Notes: a model not told the origin generated them from the sequence alone. DNA of 64,000 nt from Alphaproteobacteria bacterium (GCA_024640405.1 JAHEFB010000015.1:25622-89621); one strand, 5' to 3'; positions 5,997 through 60,628 are shown, counted from the first letter of the stretch. Program-made: numbers and translations.

Positions 5997-6011
5997 TGGG
6001 AGAGTGTTCAC

Positions 6012-43443: not shown

Positions 43444-44688
43444 GTGTTTGACCGTTCATTTACGTTGCGGCTGCGCCGCGCACCGGCTGCTGACGTCAAG
43501 CGGTTCGCCATTCTGTCGGCAATTGAGTCGATGGTTCGCGGCATGCTTCTAACTGTCATGCCGCTGTCGGTGTATCGTGTGTTTCCGGATACCGGAACGG
43601 TTTCGCTCATCTATTTCGCAGTCGGATTGATGTCGCTGTTTGCAGCCATGATGCTGCCCCGTCTGGCTCGTTACATTCCCCGGCGATGGATGTTCTCACT
43701 GGGTGCGGGACTGTTTGTGCTGGGCAATGCTCTGGCAATCGCCGGCGGGAAACTGCTGACGTTGGGGCTGCTGTGCAACGCTGTTGCAACCGTAACCGTG
43801 TTCATTTGCCTGAATGCATATGTCCTGGACTACATTGCCAAGGCGGAACTGGGCCGCTCGGAAACGTTGCGCATGTTCTACAGCGCCCTGGCCTGGACGG
43901 TCGGACCCGTAACGGGCGTATGGCTGATGGAGTTCTGGCAGCCGGCGCCGTTTCTGGTTTCCGCTGCAGCTGCCATCGTGCTTCTGGCAGTGTTCTGGAT
44001 AATGCGCCTTGGTGACGGAAAGATCATTGCAAAGGCCCGTACACCTGCTGCAAACCCGCTCTCGTTTGTTGGCCGGTTTTTTGCCCAGCCGCGGCTGATT
44101 GCCGGCTGGCTGTTCGCCGTTATCCGGTCATGCGGCTGGTGGGTTTATGTTGTCTATCTGCCGATTTTTGCGGTGGAGGCAGGTTTGGGTGACAAGATCG
44201 GCGGGACCATGCTGTCGCTGACCAACTGCCTGCTATTTGCAACCCCGCTGATGTTGCGCTGGATGCAGCACCACGGTGTTCGCACGGCTGTGCGCACCGG
44301 TTTTCTTGTGTGCGGCGTCGCCTTTGTTGCAGCCAGTTTTGCTTCCCCGCTGCCATTGCTGGCAATGGGAATCTTGATGATCGGATCATTTTTTCTGATC
44401 CTGCTCGATATAGCAGCCGGCTTGCCGTTCCTTCTCGCGGTGAAACCGTCGGAGCGCACCGAGATGGCAGCGGTGTATTCCAGTTTTCGTGATGTTTCCG
44501 GCATCGCCACGCCTGGGGTCGCCTGGCTGGTGCTGCAGGTACTGCCGCTTGCCGGTGTGTTTGCCGCGATTGGCCTGATGCTGTTCGGAGCATGGGGACT
44601 TGCTGGCCGCCAGCATCCCCAGATTGGCACCCGTGCAAGTGACCGGGTCCGGAAAAGGTTGTCCGTGGCAGGTCAGACGGAGCAGTAG
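43444..44688 (+). CDS. MFS transporter
   Basis: 414 aa with ~12 hydrophobic segments (TVSLIYFAVGLMSLFAAMMLPRLARYIPRRWMFSLGAGLFVLGNALAIAGG...). Confidence 0.85.
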   Translation: MFDRSFTLRLRRAPAADVKRFAILSAIESMVRGMLLTVMPLSVYRVFPDTGTVSLIYFAVGLMSLFAAMMLPRLARYIPRRWMFSLGAGLFVLGNALAIAGGKLLTLGLLCNAVATVTVFICLNAYVLDYIAKAELGRSETLRMFYSALAWTVGPVTGVWLMEFWQPAPFLVSAAAAIVLLAVFWIMRLGDGKIIAKARTPAANPLSFVGRFFAQPRLIAGWLFAVIRSCGWWVYVVYLPIFAVEAGLGDKIGGTMLSLTNCLLFATPLMLRWMQHHGVRTAVRTGFLVCGVAFVAASFASPLPLLAMGILMIGSFFLILLDIAAGLPFLLAVKPSERTEMAAVYSSFRDVSGIATPGVAWLVLQVLPLAGVFAAIGLMLFGAWGLAGRQHPQIGTRASDRVRKRLSVAGQTEQ

Positions 44689-44689
44689 A

Positions 44690-45622
44690 TCACGCCGCTT
44701 CTCGGCGCAGCGGCTGACACATGCAGTGAACTCCGCCACCGGCCCAGGTGAACATTGTCATGTCAGGGTCGTAGACCTCAAATCCCGCAGCCCGCATTTT
44801 CGCATTCAGATCGCTGGCACCCAGCGTGGACAGGACCCTGTCACCACCCAGCGCCACGACATTGCATCCCAATGCCATGGTTTCCTTGAACGTGGCGGGA
44901 ATGATCTCGATCTTCTTTTCCTTCAACCAGGCGATGATGTCGTCAGGTGTCGTGTCGAGACACACCGCAGCGCAGTTGTCATTGAGCATGCATACCATCA
45001 GGTCGATATGTACATAGAACTGATCGATTGGCGCATACTTGATTTCCCAGCCCTCGGCCTTGAACCAGTTGGCTACCTGGTTGGCAGCAACTTCTTCCGA
45101 CCGGTGGTCGGTATAGCCGACAAGCGCGACACCGTGGCGGATTATGTTGAAATCTCCACCTTCGAAGTTTCCTGCCGACACCATGTCGTAAATCGGAATA
45201 TTATTCTCCAGATAAAATCTCAGTACTGGCGCATACTCACCACGTCTGCGCGGGCTGGCCAACTGGCAGATGACAGCGCCATAAGGTGACATGAACGACG
45301 AATCCCGGGCGTAAATCTGGTAGGGCACCTGTTCATCCGCCGGCAGGAAGTGGCAGGTGACGCCGGCGCTTTCATAGGCATCGACCATTTCACGGTGCTG
45401 GCGCATGGCAAGCTGCTTGTCAAACCTGAGACCCCGGCGCAGGGTGTCGCGAACCAGCGACGACCATGCGGCGTTCTCCAGTCCAAGCCAGCGAAAAGTC
45501 TCTGTTGGACCGAGCAGTACATCCCGCAGGACGCCGGTCTCGGACTTCAGATACCAGTCCGACATTTCAGGCGTGCCGCCACCGTCGATACGGGCGCGCA
45601 AGGGGGGATTGTTGTTGCTCAT
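44690..45622 (-). CDS. Amidinotransferase/dimethylargininase-superfamily protein
   Basis: 310 aa; NFEGGDFNIIRHGVALVGYTDHRSEE; FYVHIDLMVCMLNDNCAAVC; TWAGGGVHCMCQPLRREA with catalytic-type HxC. Confidence 0.88.
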   Translation of the reverse strand: MSNNNPPLRARIDGGGTPEMSDWYLKSETGVLRDVLLGPTETFRWLGLENAAWSSLVRDTLRRGLRFDKQLAMRQHREMVDAYESAGVTCHFLPADEQVPYQIYARDSSFMSPYGAVICQLASPRRRGEYAPVLRFYLENNIPIYDMVSAGNFEGGDFNIIRHGVALVGYTDHRSEEVAANQVANWFKAEGWEIKYAPIDQFYVHIDLMVCMLNDNCAAVCLDTTPDDIIAWLKEKKIEIIPATFKETMALGCNVVALGGDRVLSTLGASDLNAKMRAAGFEVYDPDMTMFTWAGGGVHCMCQPLRREAA

Positions 45623-45775: not shown

Positions 45776-46510
45776 TCAAGGCAAGCTCAGCTTGCTCATG
45801 CGACCGCCGTCGACAGTCCAGACCTGGCCGGTTACGAACCCGGCCTCCGGTGATGCCAGCCATGTAACCAGTGATGCCACCTCTTTGGGTTGGCCTGTCC
45901 GGCCGACCGGGTGGAGTGTTCCGATTTTCCTGCGGAATTCTTCCGGGCTCCCCAGGCTCTCGATGAAGTCAATGTTCAGATCCGTGTCGATCCACCCCGG
46001 AGCTACAGCGTTGCAGCGCACTCCGTCCGACCCGTGATCAACCGCAACCGCACGCGTCAAACCATGTAGACCTGCTTTCGAAGCGCAGTAGGCCGGGTGG
46101 CGCGGGTTTGACCCAAGACCTTCAATTGATCCGATATTGACTATATTGCCCTTACTGGCAATCAGATGCGCGATGGCATGCTTGATACACAGAAACGGTG
46201 CCGTCAGATTGACTTGAAGTGTGTCGGCCCAATCATCGACTGACGTTTCCTGAACCGTACCCTCGCGCATCAAGCCGGCATTGTTCACCAGCACATCAAG
46301 CCGCCCATGACGCGTCATAACGGTTTGGATCACTGTTTCAGGCGCGTTCGGATCGGCGAAATCGGCCTGGATTGAATCAAAGATCTCGTCTTTGCCACGT
46401 TGTTCAGTTATCACTTGAGCGCCTTCAGCAGCAAAGGCTTGCGAACAGGCTTGTCCGATTCCCGAGCGGCCTCCGGTAACCAGGACGACCTTGTCTTGAA
46501 AGCGCTTCAT
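45776..46510 (-). CDS. SDR family oxidoreductase
   Basis: 244 aa; KVVLVTGGRSGIGQACSQAFAAEGAQV; NNAGLMREG; YCASKAGLHGLTRAVAVDHG. Confidence 0.95.
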   Translation of the reverse strand: MKRFQDKVVLVTGGRSGIGQACSQAFAAEGAQVITEQRGKDEIFDSIQADFADPNAPETVIQTVMTRHGRLDVLVNNAGLMREGTVQETSVDDWADTLQVNLTAPFLCIKHAIAHLIASKGNIVNIGSIEGLGSNPRHPAYCASKAGLHGLTRAVAVDHGSDGVRCNAVAPGWIDTDLNIDFIESLGSPEEFRRKIGTLHPVGRTGQPKEVASLVTWLASPEAGFVTGQVWTVDGGRMSKLSLP

Positions 46511-47235
46511 TGCACCGGTTTCCCGCCATTGACCTCAATCAGCGATCCGCACATATACCGCGCTTCATCGGACGCCAGAAACACCACGACATCGGCGATG
46601 TCTTCAGGTTCCGCGATCCGGCCCAGCGGTACCGAGGCATTGAGTTCCTTTATGGCAGTATCCGGGTCGAGGCCGCGCTGTGCAAACCCGGAACGGATCA
46701 TCGGCGTATTCACTTCATTGGGGCACACGGCATTCACCCGGATGTTTTGATGTGCATGTTCCATGCCGAGGCACTGGGTAAGGGCGGCAACGGCTGCTTT
46801 GGAGGTTGCGTACAAAGGGTGGTTGGGGCCCGGGTGCATGCCCCAGCAAGACGAAGTGTTGACAATCGCACCACCACCTGCTGCCGCCAAGATCGGAATG
46901 GCTGCCCGGCATAACCGAAACGGTGCTTCGACATTGATCGCCATTGTGCGCTGGTAATCTCCATCGGTCGCCTGTGTCACGGGGCCGCGCGTAATGATGC
47001 CGGCATTGTTGATCAGAATGTCGAGACCGTCCATCGCCTCTGCTGCGCGGCCCGGCAGACCATCGCAATACTCTGCATTCATGAGGTTGCCCTGGAAGCT
47101 GAAGTCAGCCTGACTGGGCTCCAGATCGGCACCGCCAACCATGACGCCTTCTGATTGCAGACGGGCAACGATAGCCTGGCCAATACCTCCTGCGGCACCT
47201 GTTACCAACGCTTTTTTTCCTTTCAGGTTACGCAT
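46507..47235 (-). CDS. SDR family oxidoreductase
   Basis: KKALVTGAAGGIGQAIVARLQSEG; NNAGIITRGPV; YATSKAAVAALTQCLGMEH; 4-bp overlap with the downstream SDR. Confidence 0.94.
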   Translation of the reverse strand: MRNLKGKKALVTGAAGGIGQAIVARLQSEGVMVGGADLEPSQADFSFQGNLMNAEYCDGLPGRAAEAMDGLDILINNAGIITRGPVTQATDGDYQRTMAINVEAPFRLCRAAIPILAAAGGGAIVNTSSCWGMHPGPNHPLYATSKAAVAALTQCLGMEHAHQNIRVNAVCPNEVNTPMIRSGFAQRGLDPDTAIKELNASVPLGRIAEPEDIADVVVFLASDEARYMCGSLIEVNGGKPVQ

Positions 47236-47334
47236 GTTAATTGTCCTTTTGGTTGGCCTCGTCAAACTCGCAGCGTGGCGCAAATTGACAACTTTGCAGA
47301 AATTTCATTTCCTTCGCCAAATGTATTGTTGATA

Positions 47335-47352
47335 TTTGTATACAATTTGTAT
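47335..47352. promoter_or_regulatory. Putative GntR/FCD-type operator, copy 1 (TTTGTATACAATTTGTAT)
   Basis: 18-bp exact match to 53518..53535; contains the palindrome TTGTATACAA; lies between divergent SDR and GntR genes. Confidence 0.65.
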
Positions 47353-47381
47353 AATCATTTTCCCGTTAAAGGAAGACTGAT

Positions 47382-48092
47382 ATGAAAATCAATAAGAAGC
47401 AGGCGTGCCGGATTGACCTGAAGCAGCGCATTCTGACGCTCGATATCGAGCCGGGAACCGTGCTTGATGAGACCCTGCTTTCTCGCCAGTATGAACTGTC
47501 CCGAACTCCGCTGCGTGAAGTGTTTCAACGCCTGGCAGGCGAAGGATACCTGACCCTGGAGGAGAACAGAGGTGCCAAGGTGTCCTCGATGGATATCGCC
47601 AGCATGCGCAATTTCTTCCAGTCCGCACTCCTGATCTATGCCGCAGTCGGCAGACTGGCTGCTGAAAATGCGACACCCCGTCAGATTGTCGCGCTGAAGA
47701 GTGCCCAGCGTTCTTTCCGCAAGGCCGGGGAAAACAGCGATGTATTCGGAATGGCTATGTTCAACCATTCTTTCCACCAGATAGTCGGTGAAATGGCGGG
47801 CAATGCCTACCTGACCCCGAGCCTCAGCCGCCTGCTGATTGATCACACCAGAATGAGCCAGCTGTTCTACAAGCCAAAAAATACCCAGGAGCAGCAGTTG
47901 ATCTGGACTGCCTGCGACCAGCACGACCAGATCATCGAGGCAATCGAGAAACGTGAACCGGCGATGGTTGTTGAACTGACCCGGGAGCACTGGGCCTTGT
48001 CTCGTGACAGGATCGAAAAATACGTCCGGCCGGATCCACTGCCGAACGATCTGGATGTTGATACGCCGGAGAGCAAAAAACATGCGATTTGA
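47382..48092 (+). CDS. GntR-family (FCD) transcriptional regulator
   Basis: 236 aa; LKQRILTLDIEPGTVLDETLLSRQYELSRTPLREVFQRLAGEGYLTLEENRGAKVSSMD. Confidence 0.94.
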   Translation: MKINKKQACRIDLKQRILTLDIEPGTVLDETLLSRQYELSRTPLREVFQRLAGEGYLTLEENRGAKVSSMDIASMRNFFQSALLIYAAVGRLAAENATPRQIVALKSAQRSFRKAGENSDVFGMAMFNHSFHQIVGEMAGNAYLTPSLSRLLIDHTRMSQLFYKPKNTQEQQLIWTACDQHDQIIEAIEKREPAMVVELTREHWALSRDRIEKYVRPDPLPNDLDVDTPESKKHAI

Positions 48093-49014
48093 GGGCATCT
48101 ATACCCCGTTAGTAACGCCCCACAACGACGACTATTCAATAAACAGAAAGGCGTTTGGCGAAGCTATTGAACATCTGATCGGTTGCGGGGTGCATGGCAT
48201 CATCGTTGCCGGTACAACCGGCGAGTATTATGCGCAGTCAACCGAAGAGCGCATTGAACTTATGGGGCTGGCCAGGCAGATTATCGGCAATCGCATTCCC
48301 CTGATTGTCGGCACCGGCGCCATTCGAACCGAAGACAGTATTGTCTTTGCAGAGGCGGCCAGGAAGATATCCGCCGATGCCCTGCTGATTGCCACGCCGC
48401 CTTATGCATATCCGACCGGGCGTGAAATTGCATTGCACGCGCTGGCCATTGACCGGGCGGCCAATCTTCCCGCCATGTTGTACAATTATCCCGGCCGAAT
48501 GTCGGTCAACATGGATGAAGAAACCCTGGACCGGCTTGGCCGTTCCCCGAATTTCTGTGCCATCAAGGAAAGCTCCGGTGACCCCAACAGGTTGCACATG
48601 CTGGCGCGTGACTATCCTCATATTCAACTGTCATGCGGCATGGATGACCAGGCGCTTGAGTTCTTTGCCTGGGGTGCGCGTTCCTGGGTATGCGCGGGGT
48701 CAAATTTTGCTCCCGAGGCCCATATCGCCCTGTACAGGGCTTGCGCGATCGAGGGAAATTTCACCAAGGGTCGCGCCATCATGTCCGCCATGCTGCCATT
48801 GATGAGTGTGCTGGAGCAGGGCGGCAAGTTCGTCCAGTGCATCAAGCACGGGCTCACATTGCGCGGGATTGCCTGCGGCCCGCCGCGCCGGCCATTGCAA
48901 CCCCTGAATAAGGATGACAAGCGCCAGCTTGCCCAAGTGATTGCCACGATGAATACCGCCATTTCGGCGATTGAGAAGGAAGCGAGAGATGAGCGATCTT
49001 CTGACACGTGCTGA
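48082..49014 (+). CDS. Dihydrodipicolinate synthase (DapA) family protein
   Basis: MRFEGIYTPLVTPHNDDYSINRKAFGEAIEHLIGCGVHGIIVAGTTGEYYAQSTEER; PAMLYNYPGRMSVNMDEETLDRL; FCAIKESSGD catalytic Lys. Confidence 0.93.
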   Translation: MRFEGIYTPLVTPHNDDYSINRKAFGEAIEHLIGCGVHGIIVAGTTGEYYAQSTEERIELMGLARQIIGNRIPLIVGTGAIRTEDSIVFAEAARKISADALLIATPPYAYPTGREIALHALAIDRAANLPAMLYNYPGRMSVNMDEETLDRLGRSPNFCAIKESSGDPNRLHMLARDYPHIQLSCGMDDQALEFFAWGARSWVCAGSNFAPEAHIALYRACAIEGNFTKGRAIMSAMLPLMSVLEQGGKFVQCIKHGLTLRGIACGPPRRPLQPLNKDDKRQLAQVIATMNTAISAIEKEARDERSSDTC

Positions 49015-50491
49015 ATATGCCGCCATTGCCAAGGCAATGGATTTCCCCAAAGCGGCCTTCATAGACGGTAAATACCGTGCTGGCCGCGGCGCGGCGCTCA
49101 AGACCTTCAATCCCGCCACAGGCGAGGTAATTTGTGAAATTGCCGCCGGCAACGGCGCCGATGTAGACCTTGCCGTGTCCAAGGCGCGCGAAGCATTCGA
49201 TCAGGGTCACTGGGCGAAACTGCATCCCGGCAAGCGCAAGGACGTACTGATCCGCTTGTGCAAGCTGATCACCCGAAACCGGCGTGAACTGGCCGTCATG
49301 GAGAGTCTCGACAGCGGCAAGCCAATTCGTGACTGCGAACTCATCGATATTCCTGAAACCATTCAGACCATCAAATGGCACGCCGAGGCAGCAGACAAAC
49401 TATACGACCAGACGGCGCCCGGTGGTGACGATGCCATCGCCATGATCGTTCGCGAACCGGTAGGCGTGGTTGCTGCAATTCTGCCGTGGAACTTTCCGTT
49501 GCTCATCCTGGCCTGGAAAATCGGACCCGCGCTTGCCGCCGGCAACTCGGTCATCGTAAAACCGGCGGAACAAACCTCGCTGACCGCCCTTCGGGTTGCC
49601 GAGCTGGCTGCCGAGGCGGGCATTCCGCGCGGCGTCCTGCAGGTACTTCCAGGCGACGGTCCTTCGGTTGGCGAGCCGTTGGGTTTGCACATGCAGGTGG
49701 ACATGGTCAGCTTTACCGGCTCTACCGAAACCGGCAAACGTTTCCTGCGTTATTCCGCAGACAGCAACCTCAAGAAGGTCGTGCTGGAATGTGGCGGCAA
49801 GAATCCGGCGGTTGTGCTCGAAGATGCCGAGGATCTGGATCTGGTGGCGGAACACCTTGTCAATGCCGCGTTCTGGAACATGGGTGAAAACTGTTCCGCC
49901 AACTCCCGTCTGATCGTGCATGAGGCGGTCAAGAAGCCGCTGCTGAAACATATGCTGGCCCGATTGCGTGACTGGAAAACCGGTGATCCGCTTGACCCGC
50001 AAAACCACCTTGGCGCATTGATCGACAAGGGCCACTGCAAGAAGGTTGCAAGCTATCTGAAGACAACCAGGGGTAAGCTGTTGGCCGGCGGCAAGATTGA
50101 AGGCAGCTTTGCTGCGCCGACGATATTCGATGACGTGAAGCGTCGCGACAAGCTAGCACGCGAAGAAATCTTCGGTCCTGTCCTGTCGGTAATAACGGTC
50201 CGCTCGTTTGACGAGGCAATTGAGATTGCCAATGACACGGACTATGGCCTTGCCGCCAGTGTCTTCACGGCCAACGGTAAAAAGGCTCTGCGGGCTGCCA
50301 GGGCTATCAGGGCCGGTACCGTTACGGTCAACTGTTATGGCGAAGGCGACATCTCCACACCGTTCGGCGGCTACAAGCAGTCCGGTTTTGGTGGCCGCGA
50401 CAATGCCATTCATGCCCACGATCAGTACACCGAAATCAAGACTATATGGGTTGATCTGAGTGATCCTGCGGCCGGAGACAAAGTAACATGA
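48989..50491 (+). CDS. Aldehyde dehydrogenase family protein (PuuC-like)
   Basis: VVLECGGKNPAVVLEDAEDL; FWNMGENCSANSRLIV; PFGGYKQSGFGGRDNAIHAHDQYTEIKTIW. Confidence 0.94.
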   Translation: MSDLLTRAEYAAIAKAMDFPKAAFIDGKYRAGRGAALKTFNPATGEVICEIAAGNGADVDLAVSKAREAFDQGHWAKLHPGKRKDVLIRLCKLITRNRRELAVMESLDSGKPIRDCELIDIPETIQTIKWHAEAADKLYDQTAPGGDDAIAMIVREPVGVVAAILPWNFPLLILAWKIGPALAAGNSVIVKPAEQTSLTALRVAELAAEAGIPRGVLQVLPGDGPSVGEPLGLHMQVDMVSFTGSTETGKRFLRYSADSNLKKVVLECGGKNPAVVLEDAEDLDLVAEHLVNAAFWNMGENCSANSRLIVHEAVKKPLLKHMLARLRDWKTGDPLDPQNHLGALIDKGHCKKVASYLKTTRGKLLAGGKIEGSFAAPTIFDDVKRRDKLAREEIFGPVLSVITVRSFDEAIEIANDTDYGLAASVFTANGKKALRAARAIRAGTVTVNCYGEGDISTPFGGYKQSGFGGRDNAIHAHDQYTEIKTIWVDLSDPAAGDKVT

Positions 50492-52047
50492 ATGTGGTGG
50501 AAGAAGCGCCGCGCACGCGTCGTGGCGGACGAGGGTCGAGGCGCGAGCTGCGCAGTGCAATTGATACTACCATGCTGCCTGCACTGCAGCGCAAACTGCC
50601 ACTTGTCGAGCCGATGGACGAAAGTCAGGTCGAGCAGATAGACAACGCATCAATGGACATCCTTGAAGATGTAGGCGTTATCTTCCGTGATCCGCAGGCC
50701 ATCGCCGACTGGAAATCCGTTGGTGCAGATATCCGTGATGAAGACAGGGTTCATCTCGATAGAGGCCTGGTCAGGGAGCTGATCAGGTCTATTCCAGAAA
50801 GTTTCACCTATCACGCACGCAACCCCGCGAACAATTTGCCGTTCGGCAAGGATCACTCGATTTTTGTCCCGATGACCGGTGCGCCGTACCTGCGCGATCT
50901 GGAGGACCGCCGACGCGGCCCGACGCTGCAAGACCTGGCTGATTTTCACAAGTTGTCACACATGTTGCCGGCGATTCACTCGTCCGCACATCATATTGTC
51001 GAACCGATGGATCATGTAGTCGCGCACCGGCATTTGCGCATCACCTACTCATCAATGAAGCACTCCGACAAGACCTTCATGGGCATGACGACAAGCCCGA
51101 GGAATGCTGAAGACGTCATGGACATGTGCGCCATCCTGTTTGGCGATGAATTCATGGAAACCCACCCTGTGGCCACCGGGAATTGCAACGGCAATTCGCC
51201 GCTGGTCTGGGATGAGACCATGCTTGGTGCCATGCGGGCTTTTTGCAAACGCAACCAGCCGGTTTTGTGCTCACCGTTCGTACTGGGTGGCGCCAACACG
51301 CCGGCTTCAACTGCGGCATCGGTTGCCCAGCTGAACGCCGAGGCGCTATCGGCCCTTGCCTATACCCAGGTGGTTCGAAAAGGCTGCCCGGCGATTTATG
51401 GTCACTATCTCTCCACGGTGTCGATGAGGTCCGGGGCGCCGATGGCCGGTACACCGGAAATCAGCCTGATGAACTTCATGATTGGCCAGATGGCCAGATA
51501 CTACAAAGTGCCCTGGCGCACATCCAACACCCTTGGCGGTGCCAAGACATTTGATGCACAGGCTGGATACGAAAGCGCCAGTACCATGATGGCTGTCCTG
51601 ATGGCAGGGGCCAACTATATCTGGCATTCGGCCGGTTGGAACGAAGCCGGCATGCATTGTTCGATGGCCAAGTTTGTCGTTGACGCTGAGCAATGTGCCA
51701 TGGGTTACCGGATGGCACAGGGTGTGAACTGGGGCGACTTCGACGAGGCCCTTGCAGCGGTGCGTGACATCGGTCCCGGTGGCCATTATCTCGGCCATCC
51801 TCATACACAGGCCAATTTTCAGGAAGCGTTCTTCATGCCGCAATTGTTCGACAACAATTCTATTGAGCAATGGATAGCTGACGGATCGCAGGAGATAACC
51901 GAACGAGCCCTCAAGCATGTGCACAAGCTGCTGGCATCCTATGAGGAACCGAAGCTGGACCCGGCAGTGGACGAAGCTCTGCTCGACTATATCGCTAGAC
52001 GCGAGCGTGAGATTCCGGCGGTTGATGCCCTCAACAATGAGCATTAG
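50488..52047 (+). CDS. Trimethylamine methyltransferase family protein (MttB-like, non-pyrrolysine)
   Basis: 519 aa; MDILEDVGVIFRDPQAIADWKSVGADI...LGGANTPASTAASVAQLNAEALSALAYTQVVRKGCPAIYGHYLSTVSMRSGAPMAGTPE; 4-bp ATGA overlap with ALDH; no in-frame TAG. Confidence 0.9.
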   Translation: MNVVEEAPRTRRGGRGSRRELRSAIDTTMLPALQRKLPLVEPMDESQVEQIDNASMDILEDVGVIFRDPQAIADWKSVGADIRDEDRVHLDRGLVRELIRSIPESFTYHARNPANNLPFGKDHSIFVPMTGAPYLRDLEDRRRGPTLQDLADFHKLSHMLPAIHSSAHHIVEPMDHVVAHRHLRITYSSMKHSDKTFMGMTTSPRNAEDVMDMCAILFGDEFMETHPVATGNCNGNSPLVWDETMLGAMRAFCKRNQPVLCSPFVLGGANTPASTAASVAQLNAEALSALAYTQVVRKGCPAIYGHYLSTVSMRSGAPMAGTPEISLMNFMIGQMARYYKVPWRTSNTLGGAKTFDAQAGYESASTMMAVLMAGANYIWHSAGWNEAGMHCSMAKFVVDAEQCAMGYRMAQGVNWGDFDEALAAVRDIGPGGHYLGHPHTQANFQEAFFMPQLFDNNSIEQWIADGSQEITERALKHVHKLLASYEEPKLDPAVDEALLDYIARREREIPAVDALNNEH

Positions 52048-52052
52048 GTGCA

Positions 52053-53396
52053 ATGACGAATATTCATGTCACTCGCCAGGCTTCTGATCCGGGTCGGCCT
52101 GCATGGGACGCCATTTTGCCGCCGGTTCGGGCCTTTCCGCCACTGGACACCGGTATGGTCGCGGACTGGCTGGTGATCGGTGCAGGCTTTGCCGGTCTGG
52201 CAGCGGCTCGCCGCCTGCGGCAACTGCATCCGGCAGATTCCATTGCAGTGCTTGAAGCGCGCCGGATTGCTGAAGGCCCTGCCGGACGCAATTCCGGCTT
52301 CATGATAGATTTGCCGCACAATCTGGTATCGGAAGATTATGCCGGTGCGCTGGATGAGGATTGCAGACAGACGGCCATGAACCGCTCTGCCATCAGCTTT
52401 GCGCGCGAGGCCGCCGGGGAGTACGAAATGTCCCGCGAGACATTTGTTCTCAGCGGCAAGACAAACGCGGCTGCATCAGCGAAAGGCGTAAAGCACAATC
52501 TGGCATATGCGAAGCACCTGCAAACGCTGGGTGAGGATCACGAGCTGCTGGACGACCGGCAGATGAGGGAGGTTTGTGGATCCCCGTACTATCGCAGCGG
52601 GCTTTACACGCCGGGAACAGCAATGCTGCAGCCGGCTTTGTTTGTACGTGGCATGGCTGCCGGTCTCGCAGCTCAAGGTGTGAAGATTTTTGAGAATTCA
52701 TCCGTTATGGAACTTGGGCGATCAGGCGGCACCTGGAATGCCAGGACCGGCAATGGATCAATTCAGTCGCCCAGGGTTGTTCTGGCGGTGAACGGTCACG
52801 TTGAGAGTTTCGGGTTTTTCAAGCGGCGATTGATGCATGTTTGCCTGTATGCCTCGATGACCAGGCCGCTGACGGAAAATGAGCAGCGCGTGCTGGGTGG
52901 CGACAGTCAATGGGGATTTACGCCCGCCGATCCCATGGGTACCACTGTCAGGAAGATTGCCGGCACCGGTGGAACCCGTATCGTTGTGCGTAACCGCTTT
53001 ACATGGAACCCGACAAGGCAGGCGAACGAAGCGGTGCTGGAGTCGTTTGGCCAGTCTCACAGGAAAACTTTCCGGGCCCGGTTTGCCATGCTCGCTGATG
53101 TGGAAATGGAGCACTGCTGGGGTGGGATGCTGTGCCTCAGCCGCAACAATGTTGCAGCATTTGGCGAGATCGATGAAGGGCTTTATTCCGCCTGCTGCCA
53201 GAACGGACTTGGCGCTGCCAGGGGTACCGCTTCCGGCATGCTGGCTGCGGAACTGGCTAGCGGCATGCAATCCGATCACTTAAACCACATGCTCGCACAG
53301 CCGGCACCCCGTCGCTTGCCGCCGGAGCCGATCGCATCGATTGGAGCATTTGCCGCCATGCGGTGGGGTGAATTCAAGGCCGGCTCGGAACTGTAA
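52053..53396 (+). CDS. FAD-dependent oxidoreductase (DAO/PuuB-like)
   Basis: 447 aa; ADWLVIGAGFAGLAAARRLRQLHPADSIAVLEARRIAEGPAGRNSGFMIDLPHNL; GGMLCLSRNNVAAFGEIDEGLYSACCQNGLGAARGTASGMLAAELASG. Confidence 0.92.
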   Translation: MTNIHVTRQASDPGRPAWDAILPPVRAFPPLDTGMVADWLVIGAGFAGLAAARRLRQLHPADSIAVLEARRIAEGPAGRNSGFMIDLPHNLVSEDYAGALDEDCRQTAMNRSAISFAREAAGEYEMSRETFVLSGKTNAAASAKGVKHNLAYAKHLQTLGEDHELLDDRQMREVCGSPYYRSGLYTPGTAMLQPALFVRGMAAGLAAQGVKIFENSSVMELGRSGGTWNARTGNGSIQSPRVVLAVNGHVESFGFFKRRLMHVCLYASMTRPLTENEQRVLGGDSQWGFTPADPMGTTVRKIAGTGGTRIVVRNRFTWNPTRQANEAVLESFGQSHRKTFRARFAMLADVEMEHCWGGMLCLSRNNVAAFGEIDEGLYSACCQNGLGAARGTASGMLAAELASGMQSDHLNHMLAQPAPRRLPPEPIASIGAFAAMRWGEFKAGSEL

Positions 53397-53517
53397 CCGG
53401 TCGCGACCGTTCTTTTTCGGGATATCCCAATCGAGACGGTTTCAATCACCTGTTCACCCCTGGAATTGACCAATATCGGCCAGAAAAGGCTAATTAATCC
53501 ACAATTCGCCATTGTGT

Positions 53518-53535
53518 TTTGTATACAATTTGTAT
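53518..53535. promoter_or_regulatory. Putative GntR/FCD-type operator, copy 2 (TTTGTATACAATTTGTAT)
   Basis: Exact 18-bp copy of 47335..47352, ~105 bp upstream of the SBP start codon at 53640. Confidence 0.65.
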
Positions 53536-53639
53536 TATTTTGCTGTTTCCCCGAGCCGTACCGGCAAGACAAATGCCTGGAATGGATCGGGATTATTTGT
53601 GACAAGAACCTAAAAACCAAACCAGGGTGGAAATATAAA

Positions 53640-55232
53640 ATGGATGACAAGAAACTGCTAAGCAGGATTCTGGGCGAAAGCCGTACAACCAGACGGGAGT
53701 TCATGGTTGGCGCAACGGCCATGGGTCTGACTGTTGCTGCTGCTTCCAACATGTGGACCGAGGCGCGCGCCGCCGAACCGAAGCGCGGCGGACACATGAA
53801 AGCCGGAATGAACGATAGCAACACGACGGATTCGCTGGATCCGGCAAGTTTCAATGCGACCGGAATGATCTGCATAAGCCGGGCATTTCGCGACAGTCTC
53901 GTAGAAGTTGGGCAGGACAATTCTGCAGCGCCTGGTCTTGCGGAAAGCTGGGAGTCGTCAGCGGATGCAAAAACCTGGCGTTTCAAGCTGCGTAAGGGCG
54001 TTACATTCTCAAACGGAAAATCATTGACGACGGAAGATGTGATCAATTCGATCAACGTGCATCGCGGAGACGATTCAAAATCCGGCGCCAAGGGCGTGTT
54101 TTCAGGCATCACCGATGTCAAGGCTGATGGCAGTGATGTAGTCGTGGTTACACTTGCCGAAGCCAATGCCAGCTTCCCGTTTCTGATGACCGATTACCAT
54201 ATGAACGTTGTGCCAACCAAGGATGGCAAGGCTGATGTGCTGTCAACCGATGGCACCGGTTGTTATCTTCTGAAAGAGTTCGATGCTGGTGTCCGCGCCA
54301 CATTCGAGAAGAATCCGAATGCCTGGCAGGGTTCTGATTTCGGCTATGTCGACAGCTGTGAAATCACTACCATTCTCGATGATACGGCACGTCAGACCGC
54401 GCTGAGCACACAGAATGTCGATATTATCAATCGCCCCGCCCTGAAAACCGTTGGGCTTCTCAAGCGCTTGCCGCATGTGAACGTGGTGGCGGTCAAATCA
54501 AACCTCGCCTTTACCCATCCCATGCGAATGGATGTGAAGCCGTTTGACAACAATGATCTGCGTCAGGCGTTGAAGCATGCGCTGCCGCGGCAGGAATTTG
54601 TTGACAAGATTCTGTTTGGCTACGGCTCCGTAGGCAACGATCAGCCGCTCGGCCCTGCCTTTGCATCATATGACGGTGATCTGACAAATGAGTACGATCT
54701 CGACAAGGCCAAGTCGTTGCTCAAGAAGGCCGGCATGGAAGGTATCAAGCTCGATATGCACTCGGCGGAAACTGCCTATGGCGGTGCACTTGACGCTGCA
54801 CAGTTGTTTGCCGAGCACTTTGCCAAGATCGGTGTCAATCTGAATGTTATCCGTGAAGCCAAGGACGGCTACTGGAACAACATCTGGAACAACAAGCCGT
54901 TCTGCTCCTGCTACTGGGGTGCGCGTCCGGTTGAAGACATGATCCTGTCGATTGCCTATCTCAGCGATGCGCCGTGGAACGATACCGTCATCAAGATGGA
55001 AAAGGTCGACCAGCTTGTGAAAGCGGCCCGCGGAGAACTGGATGATGCCAAGCGCAATGCCATGTACAAGGATGTGCAGATGCTCATCTCCCAAAATGGT
55101 GGTACACTGGTGCCGGCGTTCGGTCAGGATGTTGCAGCAACCAACAAGAAGGTCGGTATTGGCCCGAACATCGGCGGTGGCTGGGAAATGGACGGTGGTC
55201 ACTTCATCAAGCGTTGGTGGCTGAACGCCTGA
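53640..55232 (+). CDS. ABC transporter substrate-binding protein, family 5, Tat-type signal
   Basis: TTRREFMVGATAMGLTVAAASNMWTEARAAEPKRGGHMKAGM; RFKLRKGVTFSNGKSLTTEDVINSI; paralogue of the 29836 SBP. Confidence 0.93.
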   Translation: MDDKKLLSRILGESRTTRREFMVGATAMGLTVAAASNMWTEARAAEPKRGGHMKAGMNDSNTTDSLDPASFNATGMICISRAFRDSLVEVGQDNSAAPGLAESWESSADAKTWRFKLRKGVTFSNGKSLTTEDVINSINVHRGDDSKSGAKGVFSGITDVKADGSDVVVVTLAEANASFPFLMTDYHMNVVPTKDGKADVLSTDGTGCYLLKEFDAGVRATFEKNPNAWQGSDFGYVDSCEITTILDDTARQTALSTQNVDIINRPALKTVGLLKRLPHVNVVAVKSNLAFTHPMRMDVKPFDNNDLRQALKHALPRQEFVDKILFGYGSVGNDQPLGPAFASYDGDLTNEYDLDKAKSLLKKAGMEGIKLDMHSAETAYGGALDAAQLFAEHFAKIGVNLNVIREAKDGYWNNIWNNKPFCSCYWGARPVEDMILSIAYLSDAPWNDTVIKMEKVDQLVKAARGELDDAKRNAMYKDVQMLISQNGGTLVPAFGQDVAATNKKVGIGPNIGGGWEMDGGHFIKRWWLNA

Positions 55233-55268
55233 TTTCCGCAACACATTCAGACGGATTGACAAAGACTG

Positions 55269-55296
55269 GAGCGGTCCTCACGGGACCGCTCTTTTT
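55269..55296 (+). terminator. Rho-independent terminator
   Basis: GAGCGGTCC-TCACG-GGACCGCTC followed by TTTTT, 37 bp after the SBP stop codon. Confidence 0.88.
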
Positions 55297-55323
55297 GGGC
55301 GAAAACCGGGATGCCGATCGGCT

Positions 55324-56505
55324 TTGGGAAGGTCAGGCCGGATTCAGCCGCGCAGCAGACAGCCTCTGGCTTATCAAGGGAGTATTGATGTGAAAATAAC
55401 CCGCATTGCGATCTATCAGGTTGACCTGCCCATGAAAGAGGGTTCCTACAACTGGTCAACCCAGTCGTTTTCAGCATTCGACAGTACCGTGATAGCCATT
55501 GAAACAGATGAAGGTATCACCGGCTATGGTGAGACCTGCCCGCTGGGTCCTTCCTATCTGGCTGCTTACGCTGAAGGTGCGCGAACCGGCATTGCCAAAT
55601 TGGCTCCTGACCTGATCGGACAGGACCCGACCGAACTTGACTGTATAAATGATCGCATGGACCTGCTGCTGAAAGGTCATCCTTACGTGAAATCAGCCAT
55701 AGACATGGCGTGCTGGGACATTCTCGGAAAGTCGGTCGGCAAACCGGTATATTCGTTGCTTGGCGGCAAGCGGCAGGATCAGGTCAGGCTTTTCAAGGTC
55801 ATCTCCCGGACCGATCCGGACGTCATGGCGGCGCGTGTCGGCGAATACCGCGAACTGGGTTTCAGCCAGTTCCAGATGAAAGTGGGTGAAGACCCGACAA
55901 CCGACATAGAGCGGTTCAGGAAGGTTGCCGCTGCAATGCAGCCGGGTGAAGTCATGGACGCAGATGCCAATACCGGCTGGCGCCAGCATGATGCCATTCG
56001 TGTTGTCGATGCTGTCCGTTCGCTGGCCGGCGAGCACGATATTCGGCTCTACATCGAACAACCGTGCCTGACCTATGAAGAATGCTTGGTGGTTCGAAGG
56101 CACACCAATCTGCCGATGATCCTCGATGAATGTATGGAAAGCCTCACGGTCCTGCTTAGGGGCTACAATGACCGCGCAATGGATCTGATCAATCTCAAGA
56201 TAAACCGCATGGGCGGGCTGACCCGGGCCCGTCAGGTGCGTGACCTGTGCATTTCGCTGGGAATTGTCATGACAATTGAGGACAGTTGGGGCGGTGAGAT
56301 TGCAACTTCGGCCATCGCCCACCTGGCCCAGTCAACGCCATCCGGTTTTCATTTTCAGTCATCGGCATTCCATGAGTATCACACCCTGGCCATCGCTGAC
56401 GGCGGACCGGTTGTTACCGGCGGTTTCATGCAGGCAACTGACGCGCCTGGCCTTGGCGTCGAACCGATCATGGACATTCTGGGCGAACCGGTGTTTGTCA
56501 CCTGA
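55324..56505 (+). CDS. Enolase-superfamily (mandelate racemase/MLE family) enzyme, cis-3-hydroxyproline dehydratase / hydroxyproline-betaine epimerase-like
   Basis: Likely start 55390 (MKITRIAIYQVDLPMKEGSYNWSTQSFSAFDSTVIAIETDEGITGYGETCPLG); FQMKVGED; VMDADANTGW; LYIEQPCLTYEECLVV; LINLKINRMGGLTRARQVRDLC; EDSWGGEIATSAIAHLA. Confidence 0.88.
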   Translation: MGRSGRIQPRSRQPLAYQGSIDVKITRIAIYQVDLPMKEGSYNWSTQSFSAFDSTVIAIETDEGITGYGETCPLGPSYLAAYAEGARTGIAKLAPDLIGQDPTELDCINDRMDLLLKGHPYVKSAIDMACWDILGKSVGKPVYSLLGGKRQDQVRLFKVISRTDPDVMAARVGEYRELGFSQFQMKVGEDPTTDIERFRKVAAAMQPGEVMDADANTGWRQHDAIRVVDAVRSLAGEHDIRLYIEQPCLTYEECLVVRRHTNLPMILDECMESLTVLLRGYNDRAMDLINLKINRMGGLTRARQVRDLCISLGIVMTIEDSWGGEIATSAIAHLAQSTPSGFHFQSSAFHEYHTLAIADGGPVVTGGFMQATDAPGLGVEPIMDILGEPVFVT

Positions 56506-56596: not shown

Positions 56597-57676
56597 CTAA
56601 CTCTGTACGCCTTCGACGTACCAGTTCATCTTGAGCAGCTCCTCGTCGGTCGCGGTTGCACCGGCGGCATATTTCTCGACGCCCTTCTGGTCCTTGATCG
56701 GACCGGTGAACGGGTGCAGCGACCCGTCGGTAATGGCCTTGCGTACAGCTTCGGCGGCCTCAACCACGTTCGCCGGGATCGCCTTGTTGTATTCCGACAG
56801 CTCGACCTCGCCTTCCTTGAAGCCGCCCCAGAACGAAGCCGACTCCCAGGTGCCATCCATAACGTCTTTTGCGCGCTTGACGTAATACGGTCCCCAGTTG
56901 TCGAGGATGGATGTCAGATGCGCCTTGGGGGCGAATTTCGACATGTCCGATGCCTGGCCGAAGGCATACATGCCTCGCTGTTCGGCTGCCTGAAGGGCTG
57001 CCGGCGAGTCGGTGTGCTGGGTGATGATGTCACAACCTTGATCCATCAACGCCTTGGCAGCATCGGATTCTTTCGGTGGATCGTACCAGCTCGACACCCA
57101 CAATACCTTGGTCTTGAAGTCGGGATTTATCTTCTGTGCCGCCAGCGTGAAGGCATTGATGCCCATCACAACTTCCGGGATCGGGAACGAGGCGATATAG
57201 CCGGCAACACCTGTCTTGGACATGTGGCCTGCTATGGTGCCGATGACCGCCCGGCCTTCGTAGAACCGCGCATTGTAGATCGACATATTGGCCGATTGCT
57301 TGAATCCGGTTGCGTGCTCGAACTTGACATCCGGGAACAGTTTGGCGACCTTCAGTGTCGGGTCCATATAGCCAAACGAGGTGGTGAAGATCAGCTTGTT
57401 GCCGTCCTGCGCCAACTGGCGAATGACGCGTTCGGCGTCGGGACCTTCCTTGACGTTTTCAACAAACGTGGTTTTCACCTTGTCGCCGAGTTCCTTTTCG
57501 ATCATCAGGCGGCCCTGGTCGTGGGCGTAGGTCCAGCCATGGTCACCGACCGGGCCGACATAGACAAAGCCGATTTTCAGTGGCTCAGCAGCAAACGCTG
57601 CGGCATCGAGCAGCGACAGTGCCGCGGCCGATGCGCCGGTCAGTTTCACGAATTCACGTCTGTTGAATTTACTCAT
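56597..57676 (-). CDS. BMP-family ABC transporter substrate-binding protein, Tat-type signal
   Basis: MSKFNRREFVKLTGASAAALSLLDAAAFAAEPLKIGFVYVGPVGDHGWTYAHDQGR; FTTSFGYMDPTLKVAKLFPDVKFEHATGFK. Confidence 0.94.
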   Translation of the reverse strand: MSKFNRREFVKLTGASAAALSLLDAAAFAAEPLKIGFVYVGPVGDHGWTYAHDQGRLMIEKELGDKVKTTFVENVKEGPDAERVIRQLAQDGNKLIFTTSFGYMDPTLKVAKLFPDVKFEHATGFKQSANMSIYNARFYEGRAVIGTIAGHMSKTGVAGYIASFPIPEVVMGINAFTLAAQKINPDFKTKVLWVSSWYDPPKESDAAKALMDQGCDIITQHTDSPAALQAAEQRGMYAFGQASDMSKFAPKAHLTSILDNWGPYYVKRAKDVMDGTWESASFWGGFKEGEVELSEYNKAIPANVVEAAEAVRKAITDGSLHPFTGPIKDQKGVEKYAAGATATDEELLKMNWYVEGVQS

Positions 57677-57781
57677 TGGGTTCTCCCGGAAAATGTTGCT
57701 CCATCTGCAACAGAATATGACGTGCAAGTTGGTACGCAAGTCAAACCGGCAACTGTCCACGTCAGTTTTAGGCTATTTTCG

Positions 57782-58582
57782 CTATAATTTGCCGGTTTTC
57801 CAGCCAAGTCTGGATTGCAGCGTCGCGAGATCGGCGAAATACGGCAATCGCTGACGGGCAACGGCAACCCGGGACGCCTCCAGATTGGCCGAAATGAGTT
57901 GCGGACCATCGCCGGCGCGAACGACGTCACGACCGTCCGGGCCAACAATGCAACTGGCGCCTGCATACGTGATATCGCCTTCGATGCCGGCATGATTGGC
58001 GTAAAGTGCATAACAGCCGTTCTCAAACGCCCGCGCCGGTACGACCCGGTGCGCGACCTGATCCCATTGTGCACCAAGCGCGGTTGGCACAATAACCACC
58101 TCCGCACCGGCCACACAGGCAGCGCGCACGATCTCCGGAAACTCGACATCATAGCAGATCACGAGCGCACACTTCACGCCGCCCAGTTCGAAATGGGTGA
58201 GCTGATTACCAGGTGCGAAAAAGTCTTCTTCGAACCCCGGCGGAATGGCAAGCTTGCGGTGGTTGGCAACCGGTTTGCCCGCACACGACACGACCAGCGC
58301 GGAATTATACACCGTCTGGTCATCACGTTCCGGGTACCCATAACAAATTGCAGTGCCGGTCTGCCGGGCGAGGTCTGCGACGGCACGGGCAAATGCCCCA
58401 TCTGCAGGTTCGGCAAGATTGTGCAGGTCGCTGCCGACATTGTAGCCCGACATGAACAGCTCCGGGCATACCACCAGATCGAGTTGCTGATCTGCAATGG
58501 CGTTGGCGAGCCCGGCAAACCTCTGCTTAGGGCTTAGACCGGCGCCGTCACTCTGGAAAATGCCGGCCCTGATCCGGCTCAC
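57782..58582 (-). CDS. Carbon-nitrogen hydrolase (nitrilase superfamily)
   Basis: 266 aa; LDLVVCPELFMSGYNVG (Glu), HRKLAIPPGFEEDFFAPG (Lys), KCALVICYDVEFPEIVRAACVAGAEVVIVPTAL (Cys). Confidence 0.95.
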   Translation of the reverse strand: MSRIRAGIFQSDGAGLSPKQRFAGLANAIADQQLDLVVCPELFMSGYNVGSDLHNLAEPADGAFARAVADLARQTGTAICYGYPERDDQTVYNSALVVSCAGKPVANHRKLAIPPGFEEDFFAPGNQLTHFELGGVKCALVICYDVEFPEIVRAACVAGAEVVIVPTALGAQWDQVAHRVVPARAFENGCYALYANHAGIEGDITYAGASCIVGPDGRDVVRAGDGPQLISANLEASRVAVARQRLPYFADLATLQSRLGWKTGKL

Positions 58583-59736
58583 CGGTCAACAACCAGCAAC
58601 TGGCGCGGATATTCGGTCAGATAATCGCAACCGGTCTCGGTAACAACGATACTGTCGCCAATGCGCCCGCCGAGTTCGCCATCGACACTGATGCCCCCGT
58701 CAACGGCGAAGGTCATGCCGGCCCTCAGGATTGTCTTGTCGCCATGTTTCAGTTCGGGGCTCTCCAGATACGCCATGCCGATGGAGCGTCCGGTGCGGTA
58801 ACCGGTGGCATAACCACGCTCGCCGTAGACTTCGTCGGCGGCCTCGGCGATGGATTCCGCCGTCACGCCGGGGCGGATGGCGGCGATGGCCGCCTGCTGC
58901 GCATCAATTGCGGCCTGCTGGATTCTCGCGGCTTCGTCGGATACTTCGAGAATGTGGAACATGCGGTCAAAGCCCAGCTTGTATTGTTTGAACTGCGCCA
59001 TGTTGCAGAAGCAGAAATACACCGGGTCTCCGCGCTGCAGCTGTTTTACGCTGGCCCGGCGATGTACCATCGACGTGTCGCGGCCAGATTGCATGACCTG
59101 CAGATTGTGGATCATCGGCGAGACAAACTGTTCCCAGCCCTTTGCGGTCAGAAAACCCGCCGCCTTGCGGGTACCCGCGTTGATCACCGCCAGGGCAGCT
59201 TCATATTCAGGCGCGTTTTCCGCCAGAGCGCCTTCAGCAGCCGCCATCATGGCACCGGCAATCTGGCCTGCCTGTTTCATGATTTCGATTTCCATCGGTG
59301 ACTTGATCATGCGCATGGCTCCGACCAGCGGCGTGATGTCGGATAATTCAACACCGGAAAGCTGATCGTCGATCCAGTTACGCACGATGATCGGCAAGCC
59401 ATTGCGTTCGATACCGATTGTCCTGTGCGAACTGCCCAGGGTGCGGGCAAGGACATTTTCCCAGCGATTGTCGCCGGCATCTTCCCAGGTGCGCACATCG
59501 GTCACCCACGTCATCGCGCTCACCATTTCGCTTTCCATAAGCGGCGTGATCACGATGGGTTCATCGTCGGCCCGTATGATCAGGAAGGTCGGGCGGCCGA
59601 ACTCCACCGAAAGGTAACCCCAGAAACCGGCGAAATAGGCAATGGTGCTTTCGTCTGTGATCACCGCGATCTCAAGCCCGGCGTCTTTCATGCGGGTCTG
59701 GAACCGGGTAGTGCGGGCACGGGCTTCTTCGAGCAT
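58579..59736 (-). CDS. M24-family peptidase-like protein (Xaa-Pro peptidase/creatinase-like fold)
   Basis: TRFQTRMKDAGLEIAVITDESTIAYFAGF; KSPMEIEIMKQAGQIAGAMM; RPGVTAESIAEAADEVYGERGYATGYRTGRSIGMAYLESPELKHGDKTILRAGMTFAVDGG; 4-bp overlap with the nitrilase gene. Confidence 0.9.
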   Translation of the reverse strand: MLEEARARTTRFQTRMKDAGLEIAVITDESTIAYFAGFWGYLSVEFGRPTFLIIRADDEPIVITPLMESEMVSAMTWVTDVRTWEDAGDNRWENVLARTLGSSHRTIGIERNGLPIIVRNWIDDQLSGVELSDITPLVGAMRMIKSPMEIEIMKQAGQIAGAMMAAAEGALAENAPEYEAALAVINAGTRKAAGFLTAKGWEQFVSPMIHNLQVMQSGRDTSMVHRRASVKQLQRGDPVYFCFCNMAQFKQYKLGFDRMFHILEVSDEAARIQQAAIDAQQAAIAAIRPGVTAESIAEAADEVYGERGYATGYRTGRSIGMAYLESPELKHGDKTILRAGMTFAVDGGISVDGELGGRIGDSIVVTETGCDYLTEYPRQLLVVDR

Positions 59737-59863
59737 ATGAATTTTCCTGACTGCAGATTGCCTGAAGCTTGAACCTATTGTACCCGCCACCAAAGTCTTT
59801 GCCGAAAACGACATTTCTGGCATAGGATTGTACTCTGCGCGTCAACTCGCCAGGGGAATGTCA

Positions 59864-60628
59864 ATGGCTCAGGCAGCGGTCCGGTCACAAGTTTACAGCG
59901 TCGAGTTTGATGCAGGCAGGCATCACCGCGCCAAGATCGGCTATGTGCTGCTTGCCACCGAGCAAACCATTCAGGACGATGTGATGACCCTGCGGCCAGA
60001 CGGTGTCGGCATTCACATCGCGCGTGCCGCCATTCCCGACAGCATCACCAGTGAGACACTGGCTGCACAGGCGGACCTGCTGGCCGATGCCGCTGCAACA
60101 CTGTTACCGGACGGATCGCTGGATGTTGTGTGTTACGGCTGCACGTCCGGCTCGCTGGTGATTGGCGAAGCAAGAGTGATGGAAGAACTGAACAGGGGGC
60201 AGCCACAGGCCACGGCCACCTCGCTGATTACCGGCGTGATGCGCGCCCTGCGCGCTGTCGGCGCAAGGAAAATCGTCGTTGGCACGCCCTATCTTGACGA
60301 GGTCAACCAGCGAGAAGCGGAATACATGGCGGCTGCCGGCTTCGACATATTGGCAATCGAGGGGCTGAACCTTGAAAAGGACAGCGACATGGTCCGCGTT
60401 ACGCCTGCCTTCATTCGCGACTTTGCAGTATCACTGGACCGGCCGGACGCAGATGCCGTGTTCGTATCATGCGGTGCGCTCAGGACGCTGGACGTGATCG
60501 GCGAAATAGAAGCAGCCATAGGCAAACCTGCCATCTGCTCCAATCAGGCGATGATCTGGGACACGTTGCGGCTTGCCGGCATCGAAGACCGGTTCGACGG
60601 TTATGGGCAACTGCTGGCCGGGCACTGA
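59864..60628 (+). CDS. Aspartate/glutamate racemase superfamily, maleate isomerase/arylmalonate decarboxylase-like
   Basis: KIGYVLLATEQTIQDDV; two active-site cysteine motifs DVVCYGCTSGSLVIG and AVFVSCGALRTLDVI. Confidence 0.85.
   Translation: MAQAAVRSQVYSVEFDAGRHHRAKIGYVLLATEQTIQDDVMTLRPDGVGIHIARAAIPDSITSETLAAQADLLADAAATLLPDGSLDVVCYGCTSGSLVIGEARVMEELNRGQPQATATSLITGVMRALRAVGARKIVVGTPYLDEVNQREAEYMAAAGFDILAIEGLNLEKDSDMVRVTPAFIRDFAVSLDRPDADAVFVSCGALRTLDVIGEIEAAIGKPAICSNQAMIWDTLRLAGIEDRFDGYGQLLAGH

Follow-up and report, generated by a model that had tools for sequence, protein, structure and literature searches.

The locus and the question it raises

Can a methyltransferase of the MttB superfamily carry out the first N-demethylation of a proline-type betaine in an aerobic bacterium? 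The question is raised by a gene cluster in a stretch of 64,000 nucleotides (nt), contig C34:25622-89621 of the 4.37-Mb draft genome of an Alphaproteobacteria bacterium (GCA_024640405.1). This whole stretch is called the window here, and the nearest named relatives of its genome are Anderseniella (Alphaproteobacteria). In the characterised aerobic catabolism of proline-type betaines, demethylation is carried out by oxygen-dependent Rieske and flavin enzymes and yields formaldehyde. Neither a Rieske nor an HpbA demethylase was found at the window locus, which has an MttB homologue in their place. Judged from gene content and comparison with relatives, the cluster is probably a corrinoid-dependent (hydroxy)proline-betaine catabolic operon of aerobes, in which the first N-demethylation would fall to MttB instead of a Rieske monooxygenase. 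The predicted substrate is most likely 4-hydroxyproline betaine, and possibly proline betaine too.

A conserved five-gene core around MttB

Seven genes follow each other on the plus strand: a GntR regulator, a DapA-type lyase, an aldehyde dehydrogenase (ALDH), MttB, a DAO-family oxidoreductase, a family-5 solute-binding protein (SBP5) and an enolase-superfamily protein. These families and this order, together with translational overlaps among the first four genes, had been proposed in a first-pass annotation of the window, and open reading frame (ORF) coordinates and profile searches confirmed all of it. The overlaps measure 11 nt (GntR/DapA), 26 nt (DapA/ALDH) and 4 nt (ALDH/MttB, ATGA), with DAO starting 5 nt after MttB. 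We treat GntR-DapA-ALDH-MttB-DAO as the tight unit because gaps of 243 nt (DAO-SBP5) and 157 nt (SBP5-enolase) set off the last two genes. Promoter and terminator scans gave a result no better than shuffled sequence.

A scan of genome contigs for MttB orthologues (at least 78% identity) returned 80 loci. Neighbours were counted within 10 kb of MttB or up to the contig end, with many of the loci truncated by the contig. The five core genes are co-conserved in about 80% of these loci, the four partners of MttB being present in 60 to 68 each (Table 1), and a pair of short-chain dehydrogenases (SDR2 and SDR1) is found near MttB in 18. The usual orders are GntR-DapA-ALDH-MttB-DAO and GntR-DapA-ALDH-MttB-(HpbD)-SDR2-SDR1-DAO, where HpbD is an epimerase of the enolase superfamily. 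Since the unit recurs across alpha- and gammaproteobacteria, the grouping is not due to chance. The gene set is common to many ocean and soil bacteria, including Cereibacter (Rhodobacter) sphaeroides 2.4.1, whose plasmid pB holds MttB (WP_011331276), HpbD, the SDRs, the core and ProXWV all together.

The earlier proposal of one seven-gene neighbourhood stands for the five-gene core, which stays together, and fails for SBP5 and the window-type enolase, which accompany the core only in Anderseniella. There the order core-SBP5-enolase is retained in four genomes. Outside the genus a long distance separates the enolase from MttB, or each is on a contig of its own, and a fixed partnership between them was rejected.

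Some variation was seen around the core. On pSymA of Sinorhizobium meliloti AK57 the cluster looks decayed, with only partial open frames for MttB, DAO and HpbD. Some roseobacters carry an attached oxygenase-like gene (2-oxoglutarate/Fe type by eye) or a cytochrome P450, upstream of the core in L142, L166, L169 and L187 and after MttB in L143, L157, L161 and L181. Such enzymes might hydroxylate proline betaine and so feed the pathway.

Betaine and hydroxyproline genes beside the core in relatives

An HpbD-family epimerase is part of the operon in L183, L225, L143, L157, L181, L150 and G111, and is not part of it in the window. It is right beside MttB or together with it in Pelagibius (L183), on C. 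sphaeroides 2.4.1 pB, in Roseovarius (L143 and L181), and in L157, L150 and G111. On Aminobacter pAA02, MttB, a solute-binding protein different from SBP5, a B12 protein and HpbD stand in a row.

HpbD neighbourhoods were drawn from plasmids because a scan of 385 class genomes gave a single match. The survey covered 72,556 plasmid records, with an MttB orthologue in 35 and HpbD in 40, and coordinates were compared for 30 of the 35 MttB records. Among the matches listed, at least 20 plasmids have both genes, compared with approximately 0.02 shared records predicted by independent placement. The distance between the two genes is below 80 bp in at least 16 of the plasmids listed and no more than about 7 kb in 20 of 20. 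Seven of these 20 are near-identical Cereibacter plasmids, which leaves some 14 independent cases, from seven genera, among the listed matches.

HpbD was scored against solved structures in two cases. The operon enolase of Pelagibius L183 reaches 583 bits with 4e8g/4izg/4j1o and 476 bits with 2pmq/4h2h; the C. sphaeroides pB enzyme reaches 671 and 525 bits, respectively. We take these entries to represent HpbD from Paracoccus denitrificans and from Pelagibaca bermudensis; hpbD is also the NCBI annotation of a 78% relative in P. pantotrophus.

As for transport and regulation, L183, L176, L180, C. sphaeroides, Neorhizobium and Phaeobacter have ProXWV-type genes or GbdR-like regulators next to the operon. 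No betaine ABC transporter was found linked to the window operon, which has SBP5 instead, the presumed uptake component. In Roseovarius aestuarii (L180), a choline-sulfatase-like gene (5335-6852; TIGR03417, 621 bits, cut-off 433) lies between the betaine ABC transporter and the operon, and a sulfated betaine is possibly the substrate there.

The DapA-ALDH-DAO core also occurs without MttB, in Rhizobium leguminosarum, R. indicum, Paracoccus alcaliphilus and Peteryoungia. These cores adjoin betaine ABC genes and a 4-hydroxyproline epimerase or another proline-racemase-family gene; in Rhizobium and Paracoccus the core DapA has the 4-hydroxyproline epimerase gene as a neighbour. A Rieske oxygenase and its hybrid-cluster reductase are further present at the cores of R. 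leguminosarum and Peteryoungia. MttB and Rieske enzymes thus look like alternative first demethylases on one predicted pathway. The proposal that MttB replaces the usual N-demethylase, already made in the first-pass annotation, gains support from this comparison: HpbD adjacency, betaine transporters or GbdR-like regulators, and cores without MttB that have a Rieske demethylase, a 4-hydroxyproline epimerase or both beside them.

The MttB protein and its candidate corrinoid partners

The window MttB matches PF06253 over its full length (residues 11-510, 709 bits), with no in-frame stop (no amber codon) inside. Its identity to MtgB (2qne), a glycine betaine methyltransferase, is 37%, and it is a putative betaine:corrinoid methyltransferase. 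The core-linked proteins form one monophyletic clade in the MttB tree (support 100/100), with an Aminobacter protein as sister, and the members linked to HpbD are found in various parts of the clade.

Candidate partners for such an enzyme are encoded elsewhere in the genome: a corrinoid protein, a methyl-tetrahydrofolate (methyl-THF):corrinoid methyltransferase and a reductive activase, on contigs C27 and C5. In total, the genome has ten MttB homologues, three RACo activases and three corrinoid proteins. On contig C27, a homologue of the window MttB (74% identity) is accompanied by a RACo activase and the methyl-THF:corrinoid methyltransferase (392 bits, cut-off 259), together with an HpbA-like flavoenzyme and a GbdR-like regulator. 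The HpbA-like flavoenzyme is 50% identical to P. pantotrophus HpbA and 70% identical to a gene beside MttB in Nioella, where the HpbA-like gene directly follows MttB (L185 and L171). Elsewhere on the same contig, an MtgC-like corrinoid protein is 84% identical to the Aminobacter one between MttB and HpbD.

Two further observations concern MttB homologues. Contig C27 (L095, L096) is a methylated-amine island, with four of them in all. Within the window, a second homologue (41247-42767, +) lies 8 kb from the first, to which it is 39% identical, with a divergent LysR gene at 40250-41155 (-). A 68% relative in G104 (L091) also has a LysR gene and is about 6 kb from an enolase of the cis-3-hydroxy-L-proline dehydratase (c3LHypD) type.

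The window enolase

The first-pass annotation had likened the enolase to the HpbD family of epimerases, and an HpbD identity was not borne out. The protein scores 537 bits with NF043002, the NCBIfam model of c3LHypD (cut-off 500), and is of that dehydratase type. Against PDB it reaches 439 bits and 54% identity with 4mgg, which we take to be the cis-3-hydroxy-L-proline dehydratase of Labrenzia, compared with 204 bits for the HpbD entries 2pmq/4h2h; its identity to HpbD is 38%. On these values HpbD was rejected as its identity, and no HpbD was found in the window genome, where 38% is the best match.

A 57% relative of this enolase in G089 sits between 4-hydroxyproline epimerase and trans-3-hydroxy-L-proline dehydratase (t3LHypD). 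Neither of these two enzymes was found beside the enolase at the window locus; the two proline-racemase-family genes of the genome are on contigs C57 (t3LHypD) and C24.

Proposed pathway

The pathway we propose would begin with uptake through the SBP5 system, or through ProXWV in relatives. The stereochemistry at C2 would be adjusted by HpbD in relatives; in Anderseniella this might be a task of the c3LHypD-type enolase, and the ring hydroxyl is perhaps where the SDR pair acts. MttB would then pass one N-methyl group to a shared corrinoid protein, at its Co(I). The methyl-THF:corrinoid methyltransferase would hand the methyl to THF, and the ATP-dependent activase would re-reduce the cobalt; the genes for all these components are present in the genome. 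The second N-methyl would be removed or bypassed, removal being a candidate role for the HpbA-type flavoenzyme encoded beside the 74% identical MttB.

In the last steps, DAO would oxidise the D-configured (N-methyl-)hydroxyproline product to a pyrroline. The DapA-type enzyme would open and deaminate this (hydroxy)pyrroline carboxylate, freeing alpha-ketoglutarate semialdehyde, and the ALDH, a predicted alpha-ketoglutarate semialdehyde dehydrogenase, would give alpha-ketoglutarate. These final assignments are drawn from superfamily membership and partner genes rather than from orthology.

A doubtful variant, to which we give a small chance, has MttB take one methyl and DAO oxidise N-methyl-4-hydroxy-D-proline to N-methylpyrrolinium. 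The DapA-type enzyme would then release methylamine together with alpha-ketoglutarate semialdehyde, and a second demethylase would be unneeded. If true, this would explain both the divergence of DapA and DAO from the S. meliloti enzymes and the lack of HpbA in most operons.

Should the proposed pathway be correct, the B12 route would keep the methyl group on folate, and betaine use would depend on cobalamin supply. A large MttB clade of marine and rhizobial bacteria, so far uncharacterised, would also gain a predicted function.

Weighing the alternatives

Several observations weigh against a corrinoid-dependent (hydroxy)proline-betaine operon. HpbD lies within 10 kb in only 5 of the 80 MttB loci, and most marine loci have neither HpbD nor HpbA within that distance. 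A second demethylase is absent from the operon, and the proposed steps assign no firm part to the SDR pair. Maliponia L178 has a Rieske pair and MttB nearby; the replacement of one by the other is therefore not strict, and full exclusivity was not upheld. In terms of the core enzymes, the hydroxyproline-pathway analogy of the first-pass annotation holds for the triple of superfamilies in Pfam, D-amino-acid oxidase (DAAO), dihydrodipicolinate synthase (DHDPS) and ALDH, and fails for orthology. The comparison used the S. meliloti hyp operon (HypO/HypD/HypH) on pSymB, identified by similarity in a record without gene annotation. Identity between the core DapA and the hyp-operon DapA is 27-28%, and no similarity was detected between the two DAO proteins, so that orthology to HypD and HypO was rejected (27% for DapA). 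No relative of the DAO was found in PDB at E<=0.001. RACo is present in 10 of 12 relatives with an MttB orthologue of at least 70% identity, which is weak support, as 97 of 150 relatives overall have it anyway. Lastly, the products of the activase and corrinoid genes may work with other MttBs or with a split methionine synthase.

Some of these points would suit a different substrate. MttB could be a corrinoid methyltransferase for another quaternary or methylated amine (carnitine-, choline-sulfate- or glycine-betaine-like), with HpbD and 4-hydroxyproline epimerase in relatives belonging to adjoining pathways. ProV/GbdR-type genes are common to choline and glycine betaine metabolism, a choline-sulfatase-like gene is found in the Roseovarius L180 cluster, many loci are without HpbD, and orthology to the hydroxyproline enzymes fails for the core DapA and DAO. 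We nevertheless judge it unlikely, given the immediate HpbD-MttB adjacency repeated over several plasmid-bearing genera, the MttB-less cores sitting with 4-hydroxyproline epimerase, and the HpbA-like genes as neighbours. A sugar-acid dehydratase and 2-keto-3-deoxygluconate (KDG) aldolase pathway, or polyamine degradation of Puu type, is very improbable. The DapA, ALDH and enolase superfamilies do occur in such pathways, a resemblance at superfamily level only. Both were rejected on scores far below cut-off, of 99 bits against 390 for KDG aldolase, 97 against 311 for galactonate dehydratase and 527 against 850 for ALDH with the PuuC model, and the neighbours in relatives are betaine and hydroxyproline genes. 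The polyamine option, left open in the first-pass annotation by a PuuB/PuuC-like character, is further unsupported by the oxidase, which matched no Puu-family model.

A possible, though not a likely, arrangement concerns only the last two genes. In Anderseniella, SBP5 and the enolase could form a separate cis-3-hydroxy-L-proline catabolic unit that adjoins the MttB operon, which is compatible with betaine catabolism by the five-gene core. The model score and the 54% identity to 4mgg favour such a unit, as do the placement of the 57% relative in G089, the gaps ahead of SBP5 and the enolase, and the lack of linkage to MttB outside the genus. The constant gene order in the four Anderseniella genomes argues for the opposite, and a delta1-pyrroline-2-carboxylate reductase was not recognised beside the enolase in profile searches.

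Locus layout and other genes

The features of the operon and the adjacent SDR pair are listed in Table 1. The SDR pair (45776-47235, -), the second MttB of the window and the ten MttB homologues of the genome are additions to the first-pass annotation.

Table 1. Coordinates of the operon genes and the SDR pair, counted from the first letter of the window; the last column includes the number of MttB loci, out of 80, where the gene is a neighbour.
Feature	Coordinates	Strand	Model	Start	Remarks
SDR1, short-chain dehydrogenase	45776..46510	-			Divergent in window; within operon (MttB-SDR2-SDR1-DAO) in many relatives
SDR2, short-chain dehydrogenase	46507..47235	-		ATG 47235	TTG ORF as listed extends to 47283
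GntR/FCD-family regulator of operon	47382..48092	+	Pfam PF00392 + PF07729		60/80 loci
DapA-superfamily lyase/deaminase	48082..49014	+	PF00701	ATG 48082	67/80 loci
Aldehyde dehydrogenase	48989..50491	+	PF00171	ATG 48989	68/80 loci
Non-pyrrolysine MttB-superfamily methyltransferase	50488..52047	+	PF06253	ATG 50488	
DAO-family FAD oxidoreductase	52053..53396	+	PF01266	ATG 52053	65/80 loci
Family-5 solute-binding protein (SBP5)	53640..55232	+	PF00496	ATG 53640	Genus-specific member
Enolase-superfamily protein, cis-3-hydroxy-L-proline dehydratase type	55390..56505	+	NF043002	GTG 55390	Genus-specific member

Beside the SDR pair are a gene for a DDAH/arginine-deiminase-like protein (44690-45622, -) and one for an MFS transporter (43444-44688, +). 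Two further Anderseniella genomes (L108, L079) likewise have a DDAH-like gene close to the operon. On the other side, at 56597-60628, there is a separate cluster conserved in the genus, composed of a BMP-type binding protein, a carbon-nitrogen hydrolase, an M24 creatinase/DoeA-like hydrolase and an arylmalonate-decarboxylase-like protein.

Comparison with known systems

The aerobic hydroxyproline-betaine and proline-betaine pathway with HpbD is described for Pelagibaca and Paracoccus (Zhao et al. 2013 and Kumar et al. 2014, as they are cited in PMC4113996). Kumar et al. 2014 studied R. sphaeroides, according to its citation in PMC11337228. Aerobic cobalamin-dependent demethylation of glycine betaine was shown in Ruegeria (PMC12478193), and the anaerobic MtpB of Eubacterium limosum demethylates proline betaine, as cited in PMC8604678. 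Our literature search found no report joining MttB or cobalamin-dependent demethylation with the aerobic hydroxyproline-betaine pathway, Kumar et al. 2014 being outside its reach and possibly mentioning the pB cluster; a search on stachydrine with trimethylamine methyltransferase found nothing.

The window operon shares with the HpbD pathway of Pelagibaca and Paracoccus the DAAO, DHDPS and ALDH superfamilies and a GntR regulator, and the operons of relatives add betaine ABC transporters and HpbD. It differs in the first N-demethylation, assigned here to MttB and a corrinoid protein instead of a Rieske enzyme, in having a c3LHypD-type enolase and an extra SDR pair and no HpbD, and in a DapA and DAO that lack orthology to those of S. 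meliloti. Its enolase resembles the Labrenzia dehydratase (4mgg) in identity and model score; unlike the Labrenzia-type gene, it follows SBP5 behind an MttB operon, and does not lie between 4-hydroxyproline epimerase and t3LHypD.

On the corrinoid side, one parallel in parts is MtgBCD of Ruegeria pomeroyi (PMC12478193), also an aerobic alphaproteobacterium with an MttB-superfamily enzyme, a corrinoid protein, a THF methyltransferase and an activase. The predicted substrate is another one, and the window has a putative dedicated downstream operon for amino-acid degradation. MtpB of E. limosum, as described in the citing part of PMC8604678, is likewise a non-pyrrolysine MttB acting on a proline-type betaine, a likeness of function, which is predicted on our side. 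Its host is an anaerobic acetogen, whereas the operon described here belongs to an aerobe with genes that would degrade the remaining molecule.

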